From NCBI GenBank assembly GCA_030148425.1, contig JASBTM010000005.1, positions 62,001-126,000 of the forward strand: a stretch of DNA of 64,000 nt, read 5' to 3'. A model generated the notes under the pieces. That model was not told the origin of the DNA. It saw nothing but the letters and a program-made list of their open reading frames with translations, and did no database searches. The position numbers and the translations under genes are program-made. The number at the start of each line of letters is the position of its first letter. The stretch's first letter is position 1. Shown piece after piece: positions 34,012 through 42,078 of this stretch. Origin of the DNA: Hyphomicrobium sp. GTDB lineage: Bacteria > Pseudomonadota > Alphaproteobacteria > Rhizobiales > Hyphomicrobiaceae.

Positions 34012-34272
34012 TTAATTCTTGCTGAGGCTCAGTATGGTTGACGCCTTGAAGCGCCCATAGATCGCAAGCCCGGTGCCTACGAGACCTGCGATGGCCTGCG
34101 CGGCCGATATCGCCTGATCGCCGAAAGTCTGAATGACGTCAGCCGGCAGACTGACGCCGATCACAGGCCCTATCAGAGGGAGCACGGTCGCCGCCGCGGT
34201 GATCAGCGTGCCCCATAATGTCCGGGATTGGGCCCACCATTTGGTCGGGTCGGTCGTCGTTGTATCGCTCAT
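34012..34272 (-). CDS. Holin-like membrane protein from an internal in-frame start
   Basis: Possible separate 86-residue product read from the ATG at 34272 inside the endolysin frame. Upstream bases AAAGGAAACACGCCA give a good ribosome-binding site, and the encoded N-terminus (MSDTTTTDPTKWW) looks like a natural gene start. Two hydrophobic segments and a Lys/Arg tail fit a holin. In related loci endolysin and holin are separate genes. Here no stop codon divides them, so it may be made both fused and alone. Confidence 0.45.
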   Translation of the reverse strand: MSDTTTTDPTKWWAQSRTLWGTLITAAATVLPLIGPVIGVSLPADVIQTFGDQAISAAQAIAGLVGTGLAIYGRFKASTILSLSKN

Positions 34273-35457: not shown

Positions 35458-37330
35458 TCAGATAATTGCTGCTCTCGCGGCGCCGCGGCCGAAGAGGACG
35501 TTCGTCTGATAGATCCTGACGGAGAGGCTCGACTGCACGTTGCCAAAGTCTGCAATCTGATTGGCGCTGCTGTAGACGACGCTCGGCGAGGATGTCGTCA
35601 GCGTCCGCTTTACGATTGCGCCATCGAGAATATCGATCTCGTAGCTCTCGCTTTCCTCTCCTAACGGCACCTCGGGAAGCTCCCAATTGTCACCGCCAGC
35701 GCGCGTCCGCCGGATCCAGGTGAGCCCGACGTCTCCCGAAGTGCGCCTCGCTTTGACGTGCACGGGCGATAGCGGCCTAAGTCCCAAGGCTTGGTAGGCG
35801 AACGACTGAGTGACATACGATGCATCACCGATATCGCGGTTGCCCGGACCGCAGCGCCAATTGAGTGCGATTTTCCGCTCGCTTTCCTGCAACGGAACGC
35901 GCGTCACGCTGCCGTCAAGCAGAACGAACTGTGCGTCGCTCGCCAGCATTCCTACCATCGCGCCTTCGGTCCCGAACTGACCTCGCAATAGCCCACTCAG
36001 GCGATAAGTTCGCGTATCGACAAGCTCTGCGGTCTGGAACTGAATGATTTCCCAATCGCCGCTTGCATTACGAAGCCCGATGACGCGTCGTAGCCCGCAC
36101 TCCATTGCGGCAGGTCCATCAGCGCAACACCGGGCGAGCCGATCTGGACAAGCGGTGGTGGCGTTGCGGTTCGCGACGGCACGTCGATCTGATCGTAAAC
36201 GCTCGGGTCGATGGAAAGCGCTTGAACATCGCGCACGCCATGCTCGGAAACGTCGGTGAGACGCAACAATCGGCTGCGACCCGCGATATTCGCCGCAACG
36301 ATGTCGCCCGGTTCGAGGGCTAGCGCGGAGGGCGGCAGTTTGAACGTCGCGGACTCACGCGTCGCCCACGTCTCGTAGAGCCAGCTTTCGACCATTGCGC
36401 CCGCAAGGCCATCATCGAGGACGATGGGAAGGTCGGCTTCGGCTATTCGCCCGCTTGCGCCGGTAAGACGGCGCGCCTCGACAACCGCTTGCGGATAATC
36501 ATCGATGCTCGAGATGTAGCGAACCTTCGCCGAAGCTGGCAGATCGGTCTCCTGCGCGCGGGTCAGCTCATAAAGCGCATCGCCCGCGTCTTCCTCAACA
36601 AGGTCGTCTGGGCCGAGCGATATCGCAGGCGCGGCGCGGCCGCGATGGCGAAACACTATTCTGCCGCTGCTCTCGACGCTGTCGAAGAAGTAAGCCAATT
36701 CCAGCGGCTGGATCGCGTCGCGCGCCGCCATCGTGCGATCGATAACGTAGCCCGGCACGGTTCCTGTCAGTCCGGAAGCGTCGAATTCGGAGAAGCCCTG
36801 CTCGGTCAGGATCGCGGAGACGACTTCATTCAACGCAGCGCCGCCGAGGCGGCCATTGATCCAGTGACCGTGCTCCCAATTTTCGCCGTCGCCCCAGTAA
36901 GTGGTGGCCGATGGGAATGCCGGGAATGGCCGCGCGTCCCAGCAATAGACGTGGACGTGCGCAAGATCGACCATGCGTTGCCCGGTCACCGTCGAAACGG
37001 GATTGATACCCGCGACGTATCCCGGTTTGCTCCAATCGAATGCATCGGTCAGAACTTGGCGGTGACGTGCCTGCATCAGATCATCGCGAAAGCCGCGCGA
37101 ATAATAGGGATAAGCCGATTCCGAACTCTTCGGATCGACGAAGACGTTGGGCTGATTTGCGCCCTTGTCGACCGCCGGACACCCGATCTCCATAAGCCAG
37201 AAGGGCTTCGATTGCGGAATCCACGATGTCGGCGTTCCGCTTTCAACGCCGCCCGGACGATTGAAATGGCGGTTGCTCCACCAGGACAGAATATCCTTGT
37301 AGCGGAACACCCACGACTTGCCGTACGCAG
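35458..37330 (-). pseudogene. Gene transfer agent gp15-type baseplate/host-specificity protein, truncated and frameshifted
   Basis: Two reading frames together encode the C-terminal half of the RcGTA gp15-like protein (large multidomain baseplate protein with a TIM-barrel region). The first frame (to about 36100) begins in mid-domain at AYGKSWVFRYKD, continues SWWSNRHFNRPGGVES and CPAVDKGANQPNVF, and ends in a stop at 35997. The second frame (36105-35458) resumes with SGDWEIIQFQTAEL and LSGLLRGQFGTEG. Some 65-70 residues expected between the two are missing and the frame changes there. The N-terminal half is gone. The fragment abuts the terminase fragment near 37330. Confidence 0.85.
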
Positions 37331-37636
37331 ACGCGTGGCGCATCTCCGAGACGAAGCGCGAACTGCAGCATATCCCACGCCTTCTCCGCGCCGCGCCACT
37401 TCGCGAGTTCGTCGCACCAAGCGGCCGTGAACTGCGGACCGCGCAGCGCTTCGGCTTCATCCGCCGAGAACAATTCCGCGACTGCGCCGCTCGGCCACGT
37501 GAGGCGGCGTTTCGACGGTTCGAACACGGGCCGTTCGTGCGGCGGATGAATCGCGAGCAAACCCGATTGCCCTTCGATCATCACGTTGCGGACGTCGCCC
37601 AGAGTCTTGCCGACGAGGGCTATTCTTGTTTGTTGC

Positions 37637-37690
37637 GCTCGGCGACTCGCGTTCCGCGAGCCGGCCACCGAGCGCGGGCTTGCGTCGTCT
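37637..37690 (-). repeat. In-frame coding repeat, copy 3 (terminase fragment)
   Basis: About 54 bases with nested palindrome: outer arms GCTCGG...CCGAGC and inner CTCGCG...CGCGAG. Encodes DDASPRSVAGSRNASRRA on the minus strand, matching the peptide of copies 1 and 2. It directly adjoins copy 2 as a tandem pair. Confidence 0.65.
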
Positions 37691-37757
37691 TTCTTGGTTT
37701 GCGCATTGCGATCCTTCTGCGGAGAGCTGGCCGTAGCGGGCGCACCTGGGTCTTCGC
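37691..37757 (-). repeat. In-frame coding repeat, copy 2 (terminase fragment)
   Basis: Aligns with copy 1, sharing GAGCTGGCCG and TGGGTCTTCG. Encodes GEDPGAPATASSPQKDRNAQ on the minus strand. Its stem is weaker than in the other copies. Confidence 0.65.
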
Positions 37758-37858
37758 CGTTACACGCGAGGCTCCTCACCCATTCGGCACCGGCTCGGGT
37801 CTTACCCGAACCGCGGCCGCCGAGAAGCAGCCAGACTCTCCAAGCCGTTCCCGTGGCT

Positions 37859-37960
37859 GTCATCCCGGGCGAGCCTTCTTGCGAGACCCGGGACCCAGAG
37901 CTTTCTTCTGCATCCGGGAACCTGGATCCCGGCTCTTCGCTGCGCTTCGTCCGGGATGAC
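37859..37960. repeat. 102-base palindromic element inserted in the terminase fragment
   Basis: Perfect 10-base terminal inverted repeats (GTCATCCCGG and CCGGGATGAC) bound a GC-rich body containing further GATCCCGG and ACCCGGGA palindromes. It lies between the codons for DQLAPP and WRVWLLLGG and is read through in frame as about 40 foreign residues including SEEPGSRFPDAEESSGSRV. The ends are the same family as the dispersed CCCGGC-type modules elsewhere in the window. Confidence 0.8.
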
Positions 37961-38047
37961 AAGATTTGGAGTGGTGGAGCCAATTGATCGTCCCGCGCCC
38001 AGATTTCCCAATCATGAGCGATGAACTCCAGCTCTTCGCGCGTCAGC

Positions 38048-38542
38048 TCATTCAGATCTTCGGCTAGGCGCCCGCTTGCGATTGAGGCGCTCAAGACGTT
38101 CCGCAATTTCGCGGCGTAGGTCTTCCGCATGGGCGAGTGCCTCCTTGCTCTTGGCATTCCCGCCCGTCGACTTTTGCTTCGTCATCTCGCGTTGCATCTC
38201 AACGGCTTTCTCCAGGGCATTGACCATCTGCGACAGAGCACGCGACGCGCGCTCGCGATCTTGCGACGTGAGGCCCTTTTGCTTCTCGAGCTTCGTCAGT
38301 TCGCTGTCGATCGTGTTGTAGACGCGCTGAACGAGGGATCTCTTTGTCGGCGGTTTGGTTTTTGGTGGCGCGCTGCGACTCCGCTGCGCGGAGCTGGCCG
38401 CAGCGCGCGGGCTTGGGTCTTCGTTCGAGGCGATCGATAAGGCTTCTGACTTTTTTGTCTTTGCCGGTTTCGACGTGGCACGCTTCGCCTTCGTGGCGCT
38501 CGCTGCCGTCTTCGTCGCGCGAGCATCCGATGCCGCTGCCAT
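38048..38542 (-). CDS. Gene transfer agent small terminase-like protein with repeat insertion
   Basis: A 164-residue protein from ATG at 38542 (the frame is open to 38581). The second half (LVQRVYNTIDSELTKLEKQKG, then DRERASRALSQMVNALEKAVEM) resembles the small protein that precedes the large terminase in alphaproteobacterial GTA clusters. The first half is a low-complexity Ala/Lys/Thr tract, interrupted near residues 40-65 by the EDPSPRAAASSAQRSRSAP repeat peptide (copy 1). It overlaps the terminase start. The role is inferred from position and weak resemblance. Confidence 0.6.
   Translation of the reverse strand: MAAASDARATKTAASATKAKRATSKPAKTKKSEALSIASNEDPSPRAAASSAQRSRSAPPKTKPPTKRSLVQRVYNTIDSELTKLEKQKGLTSQDRERASRALSQMVNALEKAVEMQREMTKQKSTGGNAKSKEALAHAEDLRREIAERLERLNRKRAPSRRSE
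38359..38425 (-). repeat. In-frame coding repeat, copy 1 (small terminase-like gene)
   Basis: Nested palindrome with outer arms GCGCTGCG...CGCAGCGC and inner arms CTCCGC...GCGGAG. Read on the minus strand it encodes EDPSPRAAASSAQRSRSAP. It shares its core with the two tandem copies about 640 bases away in the next gene. Confidence 0.7.
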
Positions 38543-39026
38543 CAGCCGCCGACCTTTTTCGAATTTTGAAGGGATCCGCAATATGCGAGCGCGATGAGGC
38601 CGAAGCTGTCGAACCGGTGTCTCACACTTTTCGCGTTATACAGAAATGATGCCCGAGAAGCGTCGCGCTGTCAATTGCAAAATCACATAAGCTATTGAAA
38701 ATAAAAGAATTAAATTGCTTTCCGTAGCCAACCTGAAATTATAACCCGCACGCCAATGACGGGGATAAGTTTCGCGAAATTTCTTCGCTATGGCTCAAGC
38801 TGGGAGAAAGTCCTCAAGGCCAAGCACCGCTTATGCCGGTCGTCGCCGTGGATGGCCGCCTTCGCGGCCATGACGTTGTGGAGAGCTTCTCGATAAAACC
38901 GTCATCCCGGCGAAGGCCGGGATCTGTCCAGGCTGGAATATTCCCGGCAACCATCCGCTTGGAGGAACCCCAGCCTACGCAGGTCGACAGGTCCTGGAGT
39001 TCGCGGTAGCGGCCGGCGAGCGCGGG
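38543..39026. other. Intergenic region with AT-rich stretch and composite repeat
   Basis: No gene seen. Bases about 38680-38745 are AT-rich, unlike the surroundings, and probably hold the promoter for the leftward gene transfer agent relic. A GGGGATAAGTTT element at 38761-38772 matches the sequence found in the inverted repeat near 48060. A composite palindromic repeat occupies 38838-38986. Confidence 0.6.
38838..38986 (-). repeat. Composite palindromic repeat, copy 1
   Basis: Read on the minus strand: a 50-base module containing AAGCGGATGGTTGCCGGGAA, then module A (GATCCCGGCCTTCGCCGGGA), a spacer, then module B (GTCATGGCCGCGAAGGCGGC). Same order and spacing as copies 2-4 on the plus strand. 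Copies 1 and 2 also share the extra 50-base module. Confidence 0.8.
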
Positions 39027-39551
39027 TTATTTCGCGGATTTGCGCGGCGCGGGATTTGCGGCGGGCTTGCGGGACGAGCGTGGTGGAGCTTCAGCCTCCA
39101 CCGGCAAATCCGGAATGATGTACTTCAGATAATTCTGTTGCTTCACACGGCGTTCGCTCATGGCGAAGCTGCGGACGGAGATGCCTGCCTGATGCACCGT
39201 TTCGGGCGTGCCGGAGACGAGCGGATGCCACCACGGCAGGTCGCCGCGGTCGCCCACGATGCGGTAGGCGCACGTCTTCGGCAGCCACGACAATTCACGC
39301 GCGCGGGCGATGTCGATTTCGAGGCAATCCGGCATCTTCTGGAAGCGGTTGGGATAATCCCGGCAGCGGCAGGTACGGACGTCGAGCATCCCGCACGCGA
39401 GCCGTGTCAGGTAGATCTCCGCTGTATCCTCGTCCTCGAGCTTGACCAGGCAGCAGCGCCCGCAGCCGTCGCACAGTGCCTCCCACTCCTCGCGGTTCAT
39501 CTCCTCGAGGGTTTTGGTGCGCCAGAACGGTGGATCGTTGCCGTCCAACAT
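39027..39551 (-). CDS. YcgN-family cysteine cluster protein (UPF0260)
   Basis: A 174-residue protein with the family's cysteine clusters: [14 protein letters not shown] near residue 27 and [17 protein letters not shown] near 53, plus LPKTCAYR. These probably bind a metal, but the biochemical role of the family is unknown. The C-terminal 25 residues are a Pro/Ala/Lys tail beyond the usual domain. I chose ATG at 39551 ([10 protein letters not shown]), which matches the family start. Confidence 0.85.
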
Positions 39552-39765
39552 CAGATGTTGCTCTTCCCTTCTGCAAGCTCTCGGGATAACCACAATTTTG
39601 TCGACTTGCGACGCCTAACGTCGCCAAACTCGGCTGGCGGCGCATTCGGTGGAACGCGTCGCAATTGGTGTTGCGAATAAGACTCTCGCTATAAGGGCTT
39701 AAGCCCGCGTCTCACGCGTGACAAGAGCGACTTAACGGTTCGGCGCGGGCAAGGGGTAGCGCTTC

Positions 39766-42078
39766 TTGAACGACTGGTTTCACAAGCAGGGCGGCCGGGA
39801 TCGTTTTATCGATTGGCTAGCGCTTGATTCGAAGCTCAACTCTACGCTGGGCGACGCGTGGTCGCGGATCAAGGATTACTGGAACGCGGGCTCGAGCTAT
39901 TTCGCGCGGTTCCAGCTTGTCGGCTGGCGGCGGCTGCTGAACGAATTCGCGTCCGAAAGCCTGACGATGCTCTTCGGCGGCTTCGTCGTGCTCTACGGGC
40001 TGGCGCTTCCGGCTTTCCAGGAGTTCGACGAAAGCAAGTTCCTGACCGGTCGCTATGCCGTCAAGTTCCTCGACGTCAACGGCAACGAGATCGGCAAGCG
40101 CGGCATCCTGCATAACGATTCTGTTCCGCTCGACGAAATCCCGGATGTTCTGATCAAGGCGACGCTCGCGACGGAAGACCGGCGCTTCTTCGAGCATTAC
40201 GGCGTCGACGTGCTTGGCACGCTGCGTGCGCTCGTTACCAACGTGCAAGCGAACGAAGTCGTGCAAGGCGGCTCGACCTTGACGCAGCAGCTCGCGAAAA
40301 ATCTCTTCCTCTCGTCGGAGCGATCGCTGCAGCGAAAGGTCAAGGAGCTGTTTCTCTCGTTCCTGCTTGAAAGCCGCTATTCGAAACGCGAGATCCTGAA
40401 GCTGTATTTCGATCGCGCGTACATGGGCGGCGGTACGTTCGGCGCGGAAGCTGCGTCGCAATACTATTTCGGCAAGTCCGTGCGCGACATTAGCATGGCG
40501 GAAGCGGCAGTGCTTGCGGGCCTCTTCAAAGCGCCGACGAAATACTCGCCGCTGGTCGATCTCGCGGCGTCGCGCGCGCGCACCAATCAGGTGCTCGATA
40601 ACCTCGTCGAGGCCGGATACTACACGGCTGGGCAAGTGCACGCCGCGCGCATCAATCCGGCGAAAATCGTCGAAGCGCGCGCGACGACGAGCCCCGACTG
40701 GTTCCTCGACTGGGCGTACGAAGAAGTTCAGCGTATCGCCGACGGCAAGAACCAATACGTGCTCACGGCACGCACGACCGTCGATCTTACGCTGCAGCGA
40801 CAAGCCGAGGAGGCGCTCGCTGCGTCGCTGCGCAAGGAAGGGCGAAGCAACAATTTCCACTCCGGCGCCATTGTCGTAATGGAGACGGACGGCAAAGTGC
40901 GCGCGATCGTCGGAGGTCCGGATTACGGCGAAAGCCAATTCAACCGCGCGACGCACGCCAAGCGTCAGCCGGGCTCGTCCTTCAAAGTGTACGTCTATGC
41001 TACGGCGATGGAGAACGGCTTCACGCCCGAGACAATGGTGCGCGACGCATCACGGTCGTGCGGAAACTGGTCGCCATCGAACTACGGCGGCGGCGGCGGG
41101 TCGGGCGCGCGCATTCCGCTCTGGAACGCCCTCGCCCGCTCGCTCAACACTGTCGCCACCGAGCTGTCGTTCGTCGTCGGCCGCGAGAAGGTGATCGAGA
41201 TGACCAAGCGGCTCGGCATCGAGGGCGTGAAGAAGACGTGCTCGATGGCGCTCGGCGACGGCGGCATCACGGTGCTCGAGCATACGGGCGGGTTCGCTAC
41301 GTTCGCGAACGGCGGCAAGCTCGCCAAGCCCTACGGCATTCTCGACATCACGACCTCGAAGGGCGATCTGCTCTACTCGCGCGAACGCGACGAGCCCCCC
41401 GCGCCGCAAGTCCTCTCGCGCCATGTGGCGGAAGAAATGAACGTCATGCTCAACCGCGTCGTGACGGAAGGCACCGGCGGCATGGCCAATCTCGATTTCA
41501 CCAACGTCGCGGGCAAGACCGGAACATCGACCGGCCCGAAGGACGCGTGGTTCATGGGCTTCACAGGCAAATACGTGGCGGGCGTGTGGGTCGGCAACGA
41601 CGACAACAGGCCGATGCGCATGGGCGTCACAGGCGGTCATCAGGCGGCCCCCATCTGGCATGATCTCATGACGGTCGCGCACGCCGACATGAACATTCCA
41701 ACCATCCCGGGTCTCGCGCCGCATCCGAAACAAGTGGAAGAGCAACAACGCCTCGCGGAGATCAGGGCGCAGCAAGTGGCGGCGGGGCTCGCACCGATCC
41801 AGACGGACGCCTCGAAACCGCAAAGCATCATGCCGCCGAAGACGCGCGAAGCTTTGAAGATGCTTGTCTCCGCATTGCGAAAGGCGAACGGAGAGCCGGC
41901 CGCGCCGCCGGAAGCACCGCACGTTCCGCAACACGAAGACCCGAAGCAAGCGCCGCAGCCGGTCAACCGTCCCGACCGGCGCGCAACGCTGTTCGATACC
42001 TCGCACGACGATCTCTCGATACCGGCCTCAGCGCCGCCTCCGCCGGGACAGCAAGCGTCTCCCACGGCGTTGCCCTGA
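39766..42078 (+). CDS. Class A penicillin-binding protein 1A (glycosyltransferase/transpeptidase)
   Basis: A 770-residue bifunctional peptidoglycan synthase. One membrane anchor is near residues 60-80. The GT51 domain has catalytic glutamate about 137 in EDRRFFEHYG, then GGSTLTQQLAKNLFL. The transpeptidase has nucleophile serine about 404 in SSFK, the SLN motif in ARSLNTVA, and KTGTS at about 584. A Pro/Ala-rich tail follows 680. The start is TTG with GGGG about nine bases upstream; no better start precedes the anchor. Confidence 0.93.
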   Translation: MNDWFHKQGGRDRFIDWLALDSKLNSTLGDAWSRIKDYWNAGSSYFARFQLVGWRRLLNEFASESLTMLFGGFVVLYGLALPAFQEFDESKFLTGRYAVKFLDVNGNEIGKRGILHNDSVPLDEIPDVLIKATLATEDRRFFEHYGVDVLGTLRALVTNVQANEVVQGGSTLTQQLAKNLFLSSERSLQRKVKELFLSFLLESRYSKREILKLYFDRAYMGGGTFGAEAASQYYFGKSVRDISMAEAAVLAGLFKAPTKYSPLVDLAASRARTNQVLDNLVEAGYYTAGQVHAARINPAKIVEARATTSPDWFLDWAYEEVQRIADGKNQYVLTARTTVDLTLQRQAEEALAASLRKEGRSNNFHSGAIVVMETDGKVRAIVGGPDYGESQFNRATHAKRQPGSSFKVYVYATAMENGFTPETMVRDASRSCGNWSPSNYGGGGGSGARIPLWNALARSLNTVATELSFVVGREKVIEMTKRLGIEGVKKTCSMALGDGGITVLEHTGGFATFANGGKLAKPYGILDITTSKGDLLYSRERDEPPAPQVLSRHVAEEMNVMLNRVVTEGTGGMANLDFTNVAGKTGTSTGPKDAWFMGFTGKYVAGVWVGNDDNRPMRMGVTGGHQAAPIWHDLMTVAHADMNIPTIPGLAPHPKQVEEQQRLAEIRAQQVAAGLAPIQTDASKPQSIMPPKTREALKMLVSALRKANGEPAAPPEAPHVPQHEDPKQAPQPVNRPDRRATLFDTSHDDLSIPASAPPPPGQQASPTALP

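Follow-up and report, generated by a model that had tools for sequence, protein, structure and literature searches.

The window analysed here is a stretch of 64,000 nucleotides (G000:C8:62001-126000) from a Hyphomicrobium genome assembly, G000, which comprises 3.72 Mb in 17 contigs and is 85.9% complete. Between positions 34012 and 38581 it carries a GTA remnant consisting of an ORF upstream of terL, the N-terminal half of terL, megatron pieces in two ORFs and a further ORF. No capsid or portal genes were found in the window between the terL and megatron fragments. The broken GTA terL ORF (37243..38157, minus strand) matches Terminase_6N with an E-value of 1.7e-17 over profile positions 2-130 of 215, i.e. 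its N-terminal half only, and its end is overlapped in another frame by a GTA megatron fragment (35997..37460, minus strand; positions 601-1013 of 1299 in NF048004). The terL of the window is thus a remnant, and its in-frame repeat copies alone are therefore no proof of protein tolerance. The four closest named relatives of the terL piece are Hyphomicrobium metagenome-assembled genomes, with 93, 90, 82 and 74% identity. The ORF upstream of terL (38048..38581, minus strand) has no Pfam or NCBIfam match and, from its position, is probably the GTA small terminase; its C-terminal half is conserved at 11 of 18 same-genus loci, the motif search returning none at the remaining 7.

Three copies of a palindromic repeat lie in these two ORFs, all on the minus strand. 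Copy 1 (37625..37678; G000:C8:99625-99678) and copy 3 (38359..38411; C8:100359-100411) match the family covariance model with 69.1 bits (E 1.8e-18) and 66.8 bits (E 1.0e-17), respectively, and copy 2 (37691..37744), which immediately precedes copy 1 when terL is read 5' to 3', is a decayed match of 25.9 bits (E 2.6e-4). A preliminary description of this DNA had reported three related copies, read in a common frame within two different genes, with stems that are preserved although the arms differ. Copies 1 and 3 do lie where it placed them, carry the arms it quoted and pair despite their different arms; the two hosts, 38048-38581 and 37243-38157, are indeed distinct ORFs, the latter a broken terL, and the three copies share one frame of the element. 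All three are recognisable as relatives, but copy 2, for which pairing was never claimed, is decayed and folds no better than shuffled sequences (z +1.06). The RNA fold of copy 3 beats its shuffles (z -3.85), and that of copy 1 as first cut (37637-37690, with one arm clipped) falls within them (z -0.60). Copy 1 is in frame in terL at linker site 2, before RIALVGKT, and an in-frame copy occupies the same site in the relative L125/L272. Copy 3 is read in frame within the low-complexity N-terminal portion of its host; judged by the peptide, a copy is present at this place in 5 of 11 same-genus loci (L259, L261, L262, L264 and L267) and absent in the other 6. The G000 codon scores upstream of the terL copies and copy 3 are not clearly coding (-0.3, 2.4 and -4.6). 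A second, different palindromic repeat (TGTCATCCCGGG ... CCGGGATGACA; 37858..37961, an inverted repeat without assigned strand) has more copies in the genome and fits the description of CGTC/TGTC REPs in PMC3733652. Located at linker site 1, where relatives hold the main element, it contains no stop in the terL frame.

The main element constitutes a palindrome family with a unit of about 50 nt that is multi-copy in G000. BLAST searches at E ≤ 1 recovered 21 matches for copy 3 and 23 for copy 1, of which the weakest are short and partial. Among 32 loci listed, L019, L022, L024, L042 and L045 were omitted as short partial matches, and four of the 27 extracted loci (L020, L032, L038 and L043, truncated or shifted) were omitted from the first alignment, from which copy 2 is also absent. 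The covariance model was built on the resulting 23 aligned copies and spans 54 positions including the tail. The further copies anticipated from a genome-wide search with such a model do exist: at least 70 matches at E ≤ 0.1 were recovered in G000 (150 of 4403 first-look candidates scored; best E 3e-20), and 22 of 22 Hyphomicrobium genomes contain matches at E ≤ 1e-4. At the same threshold, with at most 96 candidates scored per genome, matches were detected in at least 6 of 14 genomes from other genera of the same family and in 0 of 24 genomes from other families of the order. An order-wide draw, with at most 19 candidates scored per genome, yielded matches at E ≤ 1e-6 in at least 10 of 297 genomes, i.e. 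5 of the genus, 4 of other genera of the family and 1 of another family (G074, a single match). All per-genome copy numbers are lower bounds. At one G000 locus (L084; G000:C5:304900-324400), 13 model matches are clustered within 17 kb, one of them in frame near the UvrA C-terminus. An Rfam scan of window positions 36000-40000 returned no family at E ≤ 0.1, and a literature search, with most subscription papers outside its reach, found no description of this Hyphomicrobium repeat family.

The element folds into a hairpin of about 40 nt, formed by a 9-bp outer stem, a conserved GCCGG/T internal loop, a 6-bp inner stem and a 3-nt loop, followed by a CAA(A/T)CAAA tail (e.g. CAAACAAA). Its sequence-conserved portion is CG-GCCGG-CTC...GAG-T-CG, and the GC content of the copies is 56-80%. 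In the 23 aligned copies 93.5% of stem cells pair, with 83 double-changed cells compared to 28.9 +/- 3.8 in shuffles and at most 28 when partners are slid. The larger alignment, of the best 150 of 151 matches (146 distinct), was fitted to the model and hence favours the structure; here 95.2% of cells pair and 452 are double-changed, compared to 119.4 +/- 14.1 in shuffles and at most 115 with slid partners. The covariation thus exceeds what GC content predicts. The outer left arm takes 65 different sequences in the 150 copies, 107 of which are without an outer mispair, and changes in the outer stem are mostly double. The outer stem includes 24 G-T, 18 A-C and 34 otherwise mismatched cells as compared to 1227 Watson-Crick cells, and the inner stem 23 G-T, 10 A-C and 43 otherwise mismatched cells. 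Wobble pairs are not clearly preferred in the outer stem and are somewhat preferred in the inner stem. These mismatch counts are compatible with either an RNA-level or a DNA-level cause of the covariation and do not decide between the two. The motif GAGTCG is present in 127 of 150 copies, with a window background of 1.8 GANTC sites per kb. GAGTC is a GANTC (CcrM) site inside the conserved core (columns 40-44 of the 150-copy alignment). According to the column counts of the same alignment, the consensus has no unpaired GTAG or CGTC end motif, its ends reading CCG and CAA(A/T)CAAA.

Genes in G000 were called with our own codon-usage caller, trained on the window (called coding fraction 0.87). 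After removal of one of the 70 matches as an overlapping duplicate, 69 distinct copies were located, 5 within called genes, 1 at a gene 3' end and 63 in intergenic space, the latter between convergent (32), unidirectional (25) or divergent (6) genes; these 63 include the two copies in the broken terL, which the caller missed. Counted by hand, about 8 of the 69 copies lie in reading frames and the remainder are intergenic. The in-frame copies are the two in terL and those in the ORF upstream of terL, MazG, IleRS, UvrB, the UvrA C-terminus and an N-terminal stretch of a HAD-like protein. In a first scan of flanking codon scores, both sides were clearly coding only for MazG, IleRS and UvrB. IleRS (TIGR00392) and MazG (NF007113) were identified above cut-off; UvrB and UvrA were identified by Pfam, with NF003673 below cut-off for UvrB because the locus cuts the gene. 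The HAD-like host scores 25.4 bits against a Pfam cut-off of 27 and has an uncertain start, which may lie after the element. In UvrB and UvrA, for which only G000 was read, the copies sit in C-terminal tails. The family is consequently mostly REP-like and not protein-coding, in contrast to the mainly coding family portrayed in the preliminary description.

Comparison of host genes across relatives establishes that conserved proteins exist both with and without the insert. Model matches within the ORF occur at a single loop in 12 of 22 same-genus loci for IleRS and in 14 of 21 for MazG, and within the TerL ORF in 18 of the 19 same-genus loci examined; L246 and, in the TerL set, L267 yielded no motif. 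The TerL genes of L272 and L273 are truncated, and the pieces L274-L284, in some cases the second fragment of one gene, were left out. The IleRS insert maps between residues 415 and 419 of chain 8c9e, and the segment from TPQWF to NRIxGM spans 57-143 residues across 21 loci of the genus (no segment was obtained from L219 and L246), compared to 45-50 residues in ten, 54 in two and 57 in one of 13 loci from other genera. In G033 (L286), which belongs to another genus of the family, a copy-like insert is seen at the IleRS loop, with a segment of 54 residues. A single IleRS match was detected in G000 and in each of the single-contig, 100%-complete genomes G007 and G008, in all cases with the insert, and the insert-bearing gene must hence serve. 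The MazG insert maps between residues 178 and 189 of 3cra, in a loop flanked by KEEIxEFEE and EEFGD, which we take to be the loop between the two acidic motifs of MazG. Long open terL genes are found in the relatives L126, L127 and L128 (591, 554 and 514 codons between stops), with in-frame copies at the linker before GGRGSGKT and, in L126 and L127, also before RIALVGKT; the terL genes of L147, L144, L130 and L129 have no such insert stretch in the alignment. A PDB sequence search with TerL gave no match. In an AlphaFold2 model of the L127 TerL (44 sequences, mean pLDDT 81.6, 315 of 541 residues at 90 or above), residues 55-98 and most of 134-184, i.e. the insert regions, are predicted with pLDDT under 50.

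The loops of IleRS, MazG and TerL have been reoccupied across the genus in both orientations, and those of IleRS and TerL are in some loci filled by other repeats. The IleRS loops of L238, L241, L242, L243, L244 and L245, from six other genomes, contain different repeats, with peptides like SLSPRGEAGAARAGEG and PPHPNPLPKGRG, and L245 also shows a short tandem expansion. The 83 in-ORF matches of the three genes divide into 35 in frame +0, 31 in -1, 13 in +2 and 4 in others. These counts lack independence, orthologous sites being related by descent; in addition, L212 and L232 are counted on both strands and the first L208 match lies on the mirror strand of its core. The encoded peptides resemble APSGRLAERESEGAIK (+0), LLAPGDSPAESRPPGA (-1) and SPRPAAGSRNASRRAPTK (+2). 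Two of the four off-frame matches begin at model position 5 and two span 55 and 56 nt; their peptides are those of the main frames. A single uniform frame for the family, shared as it is by the three window copies, is ruled out, as copies inside genes occupy both orientations and essentially three frames out of six. Across 128 full-length copies the used frames contain stops in 8 (+0), 6 (-1) and 14 (+2) copies and the unused frames -0 and +1 in 35 and 28, respectively; the unused frame -2 is open in 123 copies but consists of 31% bulky residues, as compared to 13 (+0), 17.5 (-1) and 8% (+2) in the used frames, of which -1 is itself fairly bulky. Such frame use suggests that stops and bulky peptides are selected against. 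Inversion about the outer-stem centre keeps the length and converts +0 to -1, according to arithmetic by hand on the model columns, and it is between these two frames that copies alternate at the loops of IleRS, MazG and TerL site 1.

Several comparisons indicate turnover at occupied sites. When the IleRS site state (plus, minus, other repeat or decayed, with labels assigned by eye) is placed on a tree of 21 proteins, built with the insert removed and without G013, 10 changes are required, where the minimum is 3 and the shuffled mean 11.8. The sister genomes G001 and G003 have different repeats at the IleRS site, and the two-element MazG array of G008 scores 66 against the reverse-complemented G017 array, compared to 16 in the same direction. 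The G016 core is the exact reverse complement of the G012 core; taken alone this is weak as an inversion, as the core is found in 4 of 150 rows including that of G012 itself. The second unit (41 nt) of the G017 array recurs exactly in the TerL of L255. Together, the shared core and the recurring unit make reinsertion possible instead of in-place inversion.

Based on these observations, we consider it probable that the elements are REP-like selfish palindromes of Hyphomicrobium and some relatives, which are tolerated in flexible loops and undergo rewriting of arms and core through template switching. The element would spread as selfish DNA through an inferred mobilising activity, and insertions that break frame or fold would be lost, leaving loop insertions in tolerable frames to survive. 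The arms would remain complementary while their sequence changes because, through template switching during replication, one arm is copied onto its partner, and the same process could also flip the core in place, keeping the length and swapping frame +0 for -1. Template switching is a likely cause of the arm covariation: in yeast coding DNA it reportedly homogenises arms and inverts spacers (PMC8604942), and it is also reported to maintain hairpins (PMC8794818). Against this explanation, no transposition or template-switch event was directly seen in the genomes compared. A stronger version, in which the in-gene copies form an invertible loop-diversifying system with the core or a two-element array flipping in place by template switching, appears to us rather doubtful. 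If true, the palindromes would be standing mutators of essential-enzyme loops, swapping one peptide for another with the reading frame kept, and the well-kept GAGTC, as a GANTC methylation site, might tie loop flipping to replication and methylation.

The principal competitor to selfish palindromes tolerated in loops is that the element is kept for its RNA hairpin, as a 3'-end stabiliser or terminator, with compensation selected in RNA and the in-gene copies being accidental. The location of 57 of the 63 intergenic copies between convergent or unidirectional genes, a bias like that described for REPs in PMC3733652, makes a role at mRNA 3' ends possible, and the very strong covariation and the inner-stem excess of wobble over A-C cells (23 to 10) accord with it. 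Nevertheless, outer-stem wobble is little commoner than A-C (24 to 18), the changes there are mostly double, the IleRS and MazG copies occur in both orientations relative to the mRNA, and wobble and A-C cells number 3 and 4 in IleRS and 4 and 4 in MazG, though these numbers are very small. Overall, we regard an RNA function as a possible but less likely origin of the family. Of the selection on structure combined with tolerance in protein that was suggested in the preliminary description, the tolerance is upheld by in-frame inserts in conserved proteins, and the mismatch counts speak neither for nor against selection at the RNA level. Mobilisation as a standard REP system by a RAYT (Y1 transposase) would account for a short palindrome with an intergenic bias and clustered copies; we consider it very unlikely, as the Y1 transposase PF01797 was not found in G000 and was detected in only 1 of the 22 genus genomes (G021, 27.9 bits), although the element is present in 22 of 22, and as the consensus lacks a GTAG or CGTC tag. 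Chance pairing in GC-rich, low-complexity sequence, to which the high GC content and the z-score of copy 1 as first cut might point, is ruled out as the source of the stems by the shuffles, the slid partners and the 24 match-free genomes from other families, and we give it practically no weight.

The in-gene sites allow two further readings. Each might represent a single old, vertically inherited insertion whose differences reflect only drift, in line with the sharing of sites across the genus and with the decayed-looking IleRS copies of G014, G009 and G016 (judged by eye). The scatter of orientation and repeat type on the IleRS tree, with its 10 changes for a minimum of 3 (shuffled mean 11.8), the differing repeats of the sisters G001 and G003 and the inverted MazG arrays of G008 and G017 render this improbable. 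The encoded peptide could also be a useful module under positive selection, given that GRLxExES, GDSPxxSRPP and AAGSRNASRxxxTK recur in unrelated proteins. Since different peptides alternate at one site, relatives have other repeats or plain linkers, and the TerL insert regions are predicted to be disordered, we find such a benefit hard to credit.

The best-known protein-coding palindromes are those of Rickettsia and Wolbachia, whose genomes are reduced and under weak selection, a circumstance usually offered in explanation. Here, a free-living genus holds them in IleRS, MazG and a terminase of phage origin. Among 22 related genomes the same loops are variously occupied, vacant, inverted or taken by other repeats, which is unusually good comparative material. 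Two questions thereby become testable: by what route DNA palindromes enter genes and evolve within them, and whether covariation in a stem necessarily reflects RNA selection.

With the palindromic elements of Rickettsia (RPE), which go back to Ogata et al. (2000, 2002) and are taken here as relayed in PMC2229807 and PMC10969869, the Hyphomicrobium element shares an alphaproteobacterial host and the in-frame presence of palindromes in unrelated conserved genes, here IleRS, MazG, UvrB, UvrA and TerL. The likeness to RPE drawn in the preliminary description thus holds for insertion into conserved proteins but not for size or genic share: RPE measure about 150 bp, and nearly half of their copies lie inside ORFs (PMC10969869), as compared to about 50 nt and about 8 of 69 copies in frames. 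In further contrast to RPE, the Hyphomicrobium host is free-living, the arms are almost free in sequence, and the same loop is reused in either orientation. The GTAG/CGTC REPs (Di Nocera et al. 2013, PMC3733652) are likewise short palindromes, mostly downstream of genes with some intragenic, and the intergenic preference for convergent or unidirectional genes in G000 (57 of 63) agrees with them. REPs within uvrA, uvrB and tRNA synthetase genes of other bacteria are reported in the same paper, so the kind of element is already known; CGTC families are described there as mostly alphaproteobacterial and apparently without a dedicated transposase. Hyphomicrobium is not named in the main text of PMC3733652. 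Unlike these REPs, the present element has no unpaired GTAG/CGTC end motif and forms a two-stem hairpin with a GCCGG/T internal loop. Because it differs in length, genic share, end tag and transposase, it is filed neither as an RPE nor as a GTAG/CGTC REP.

A kept GANTC site, here GAGTCG in 127 of 150 copies, is shared with the Caulobacter CcrM-associated intergenic repeats (CIR), which according to PMC2229807 are about 110 bp long, intergenic and two-armed, as opposed to about 50 nt and partly genic. MITEs are A+T-rich according to the same paper, in contrast to the 56-80% GC of the Hyphomicrobium copies. Template switching of the kind described in PMC8604942 and PMC8794818 would account for arms that change in compensating blocks and for cores inverted in place within coding DNA, but the cases in these papers concern inverted repeats of yeast genes and RNA genes, not a dispersed bacterial element, and the spacer inversions in the yeast study (PMC8604942) changed 2-5 bp. 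In conclusion, the element is a real, strongly covarying palindrome family, a minority of whose copies lie in frame in flexible loops of core proteins, and represents a variant of the protein-coding palindrome theme.
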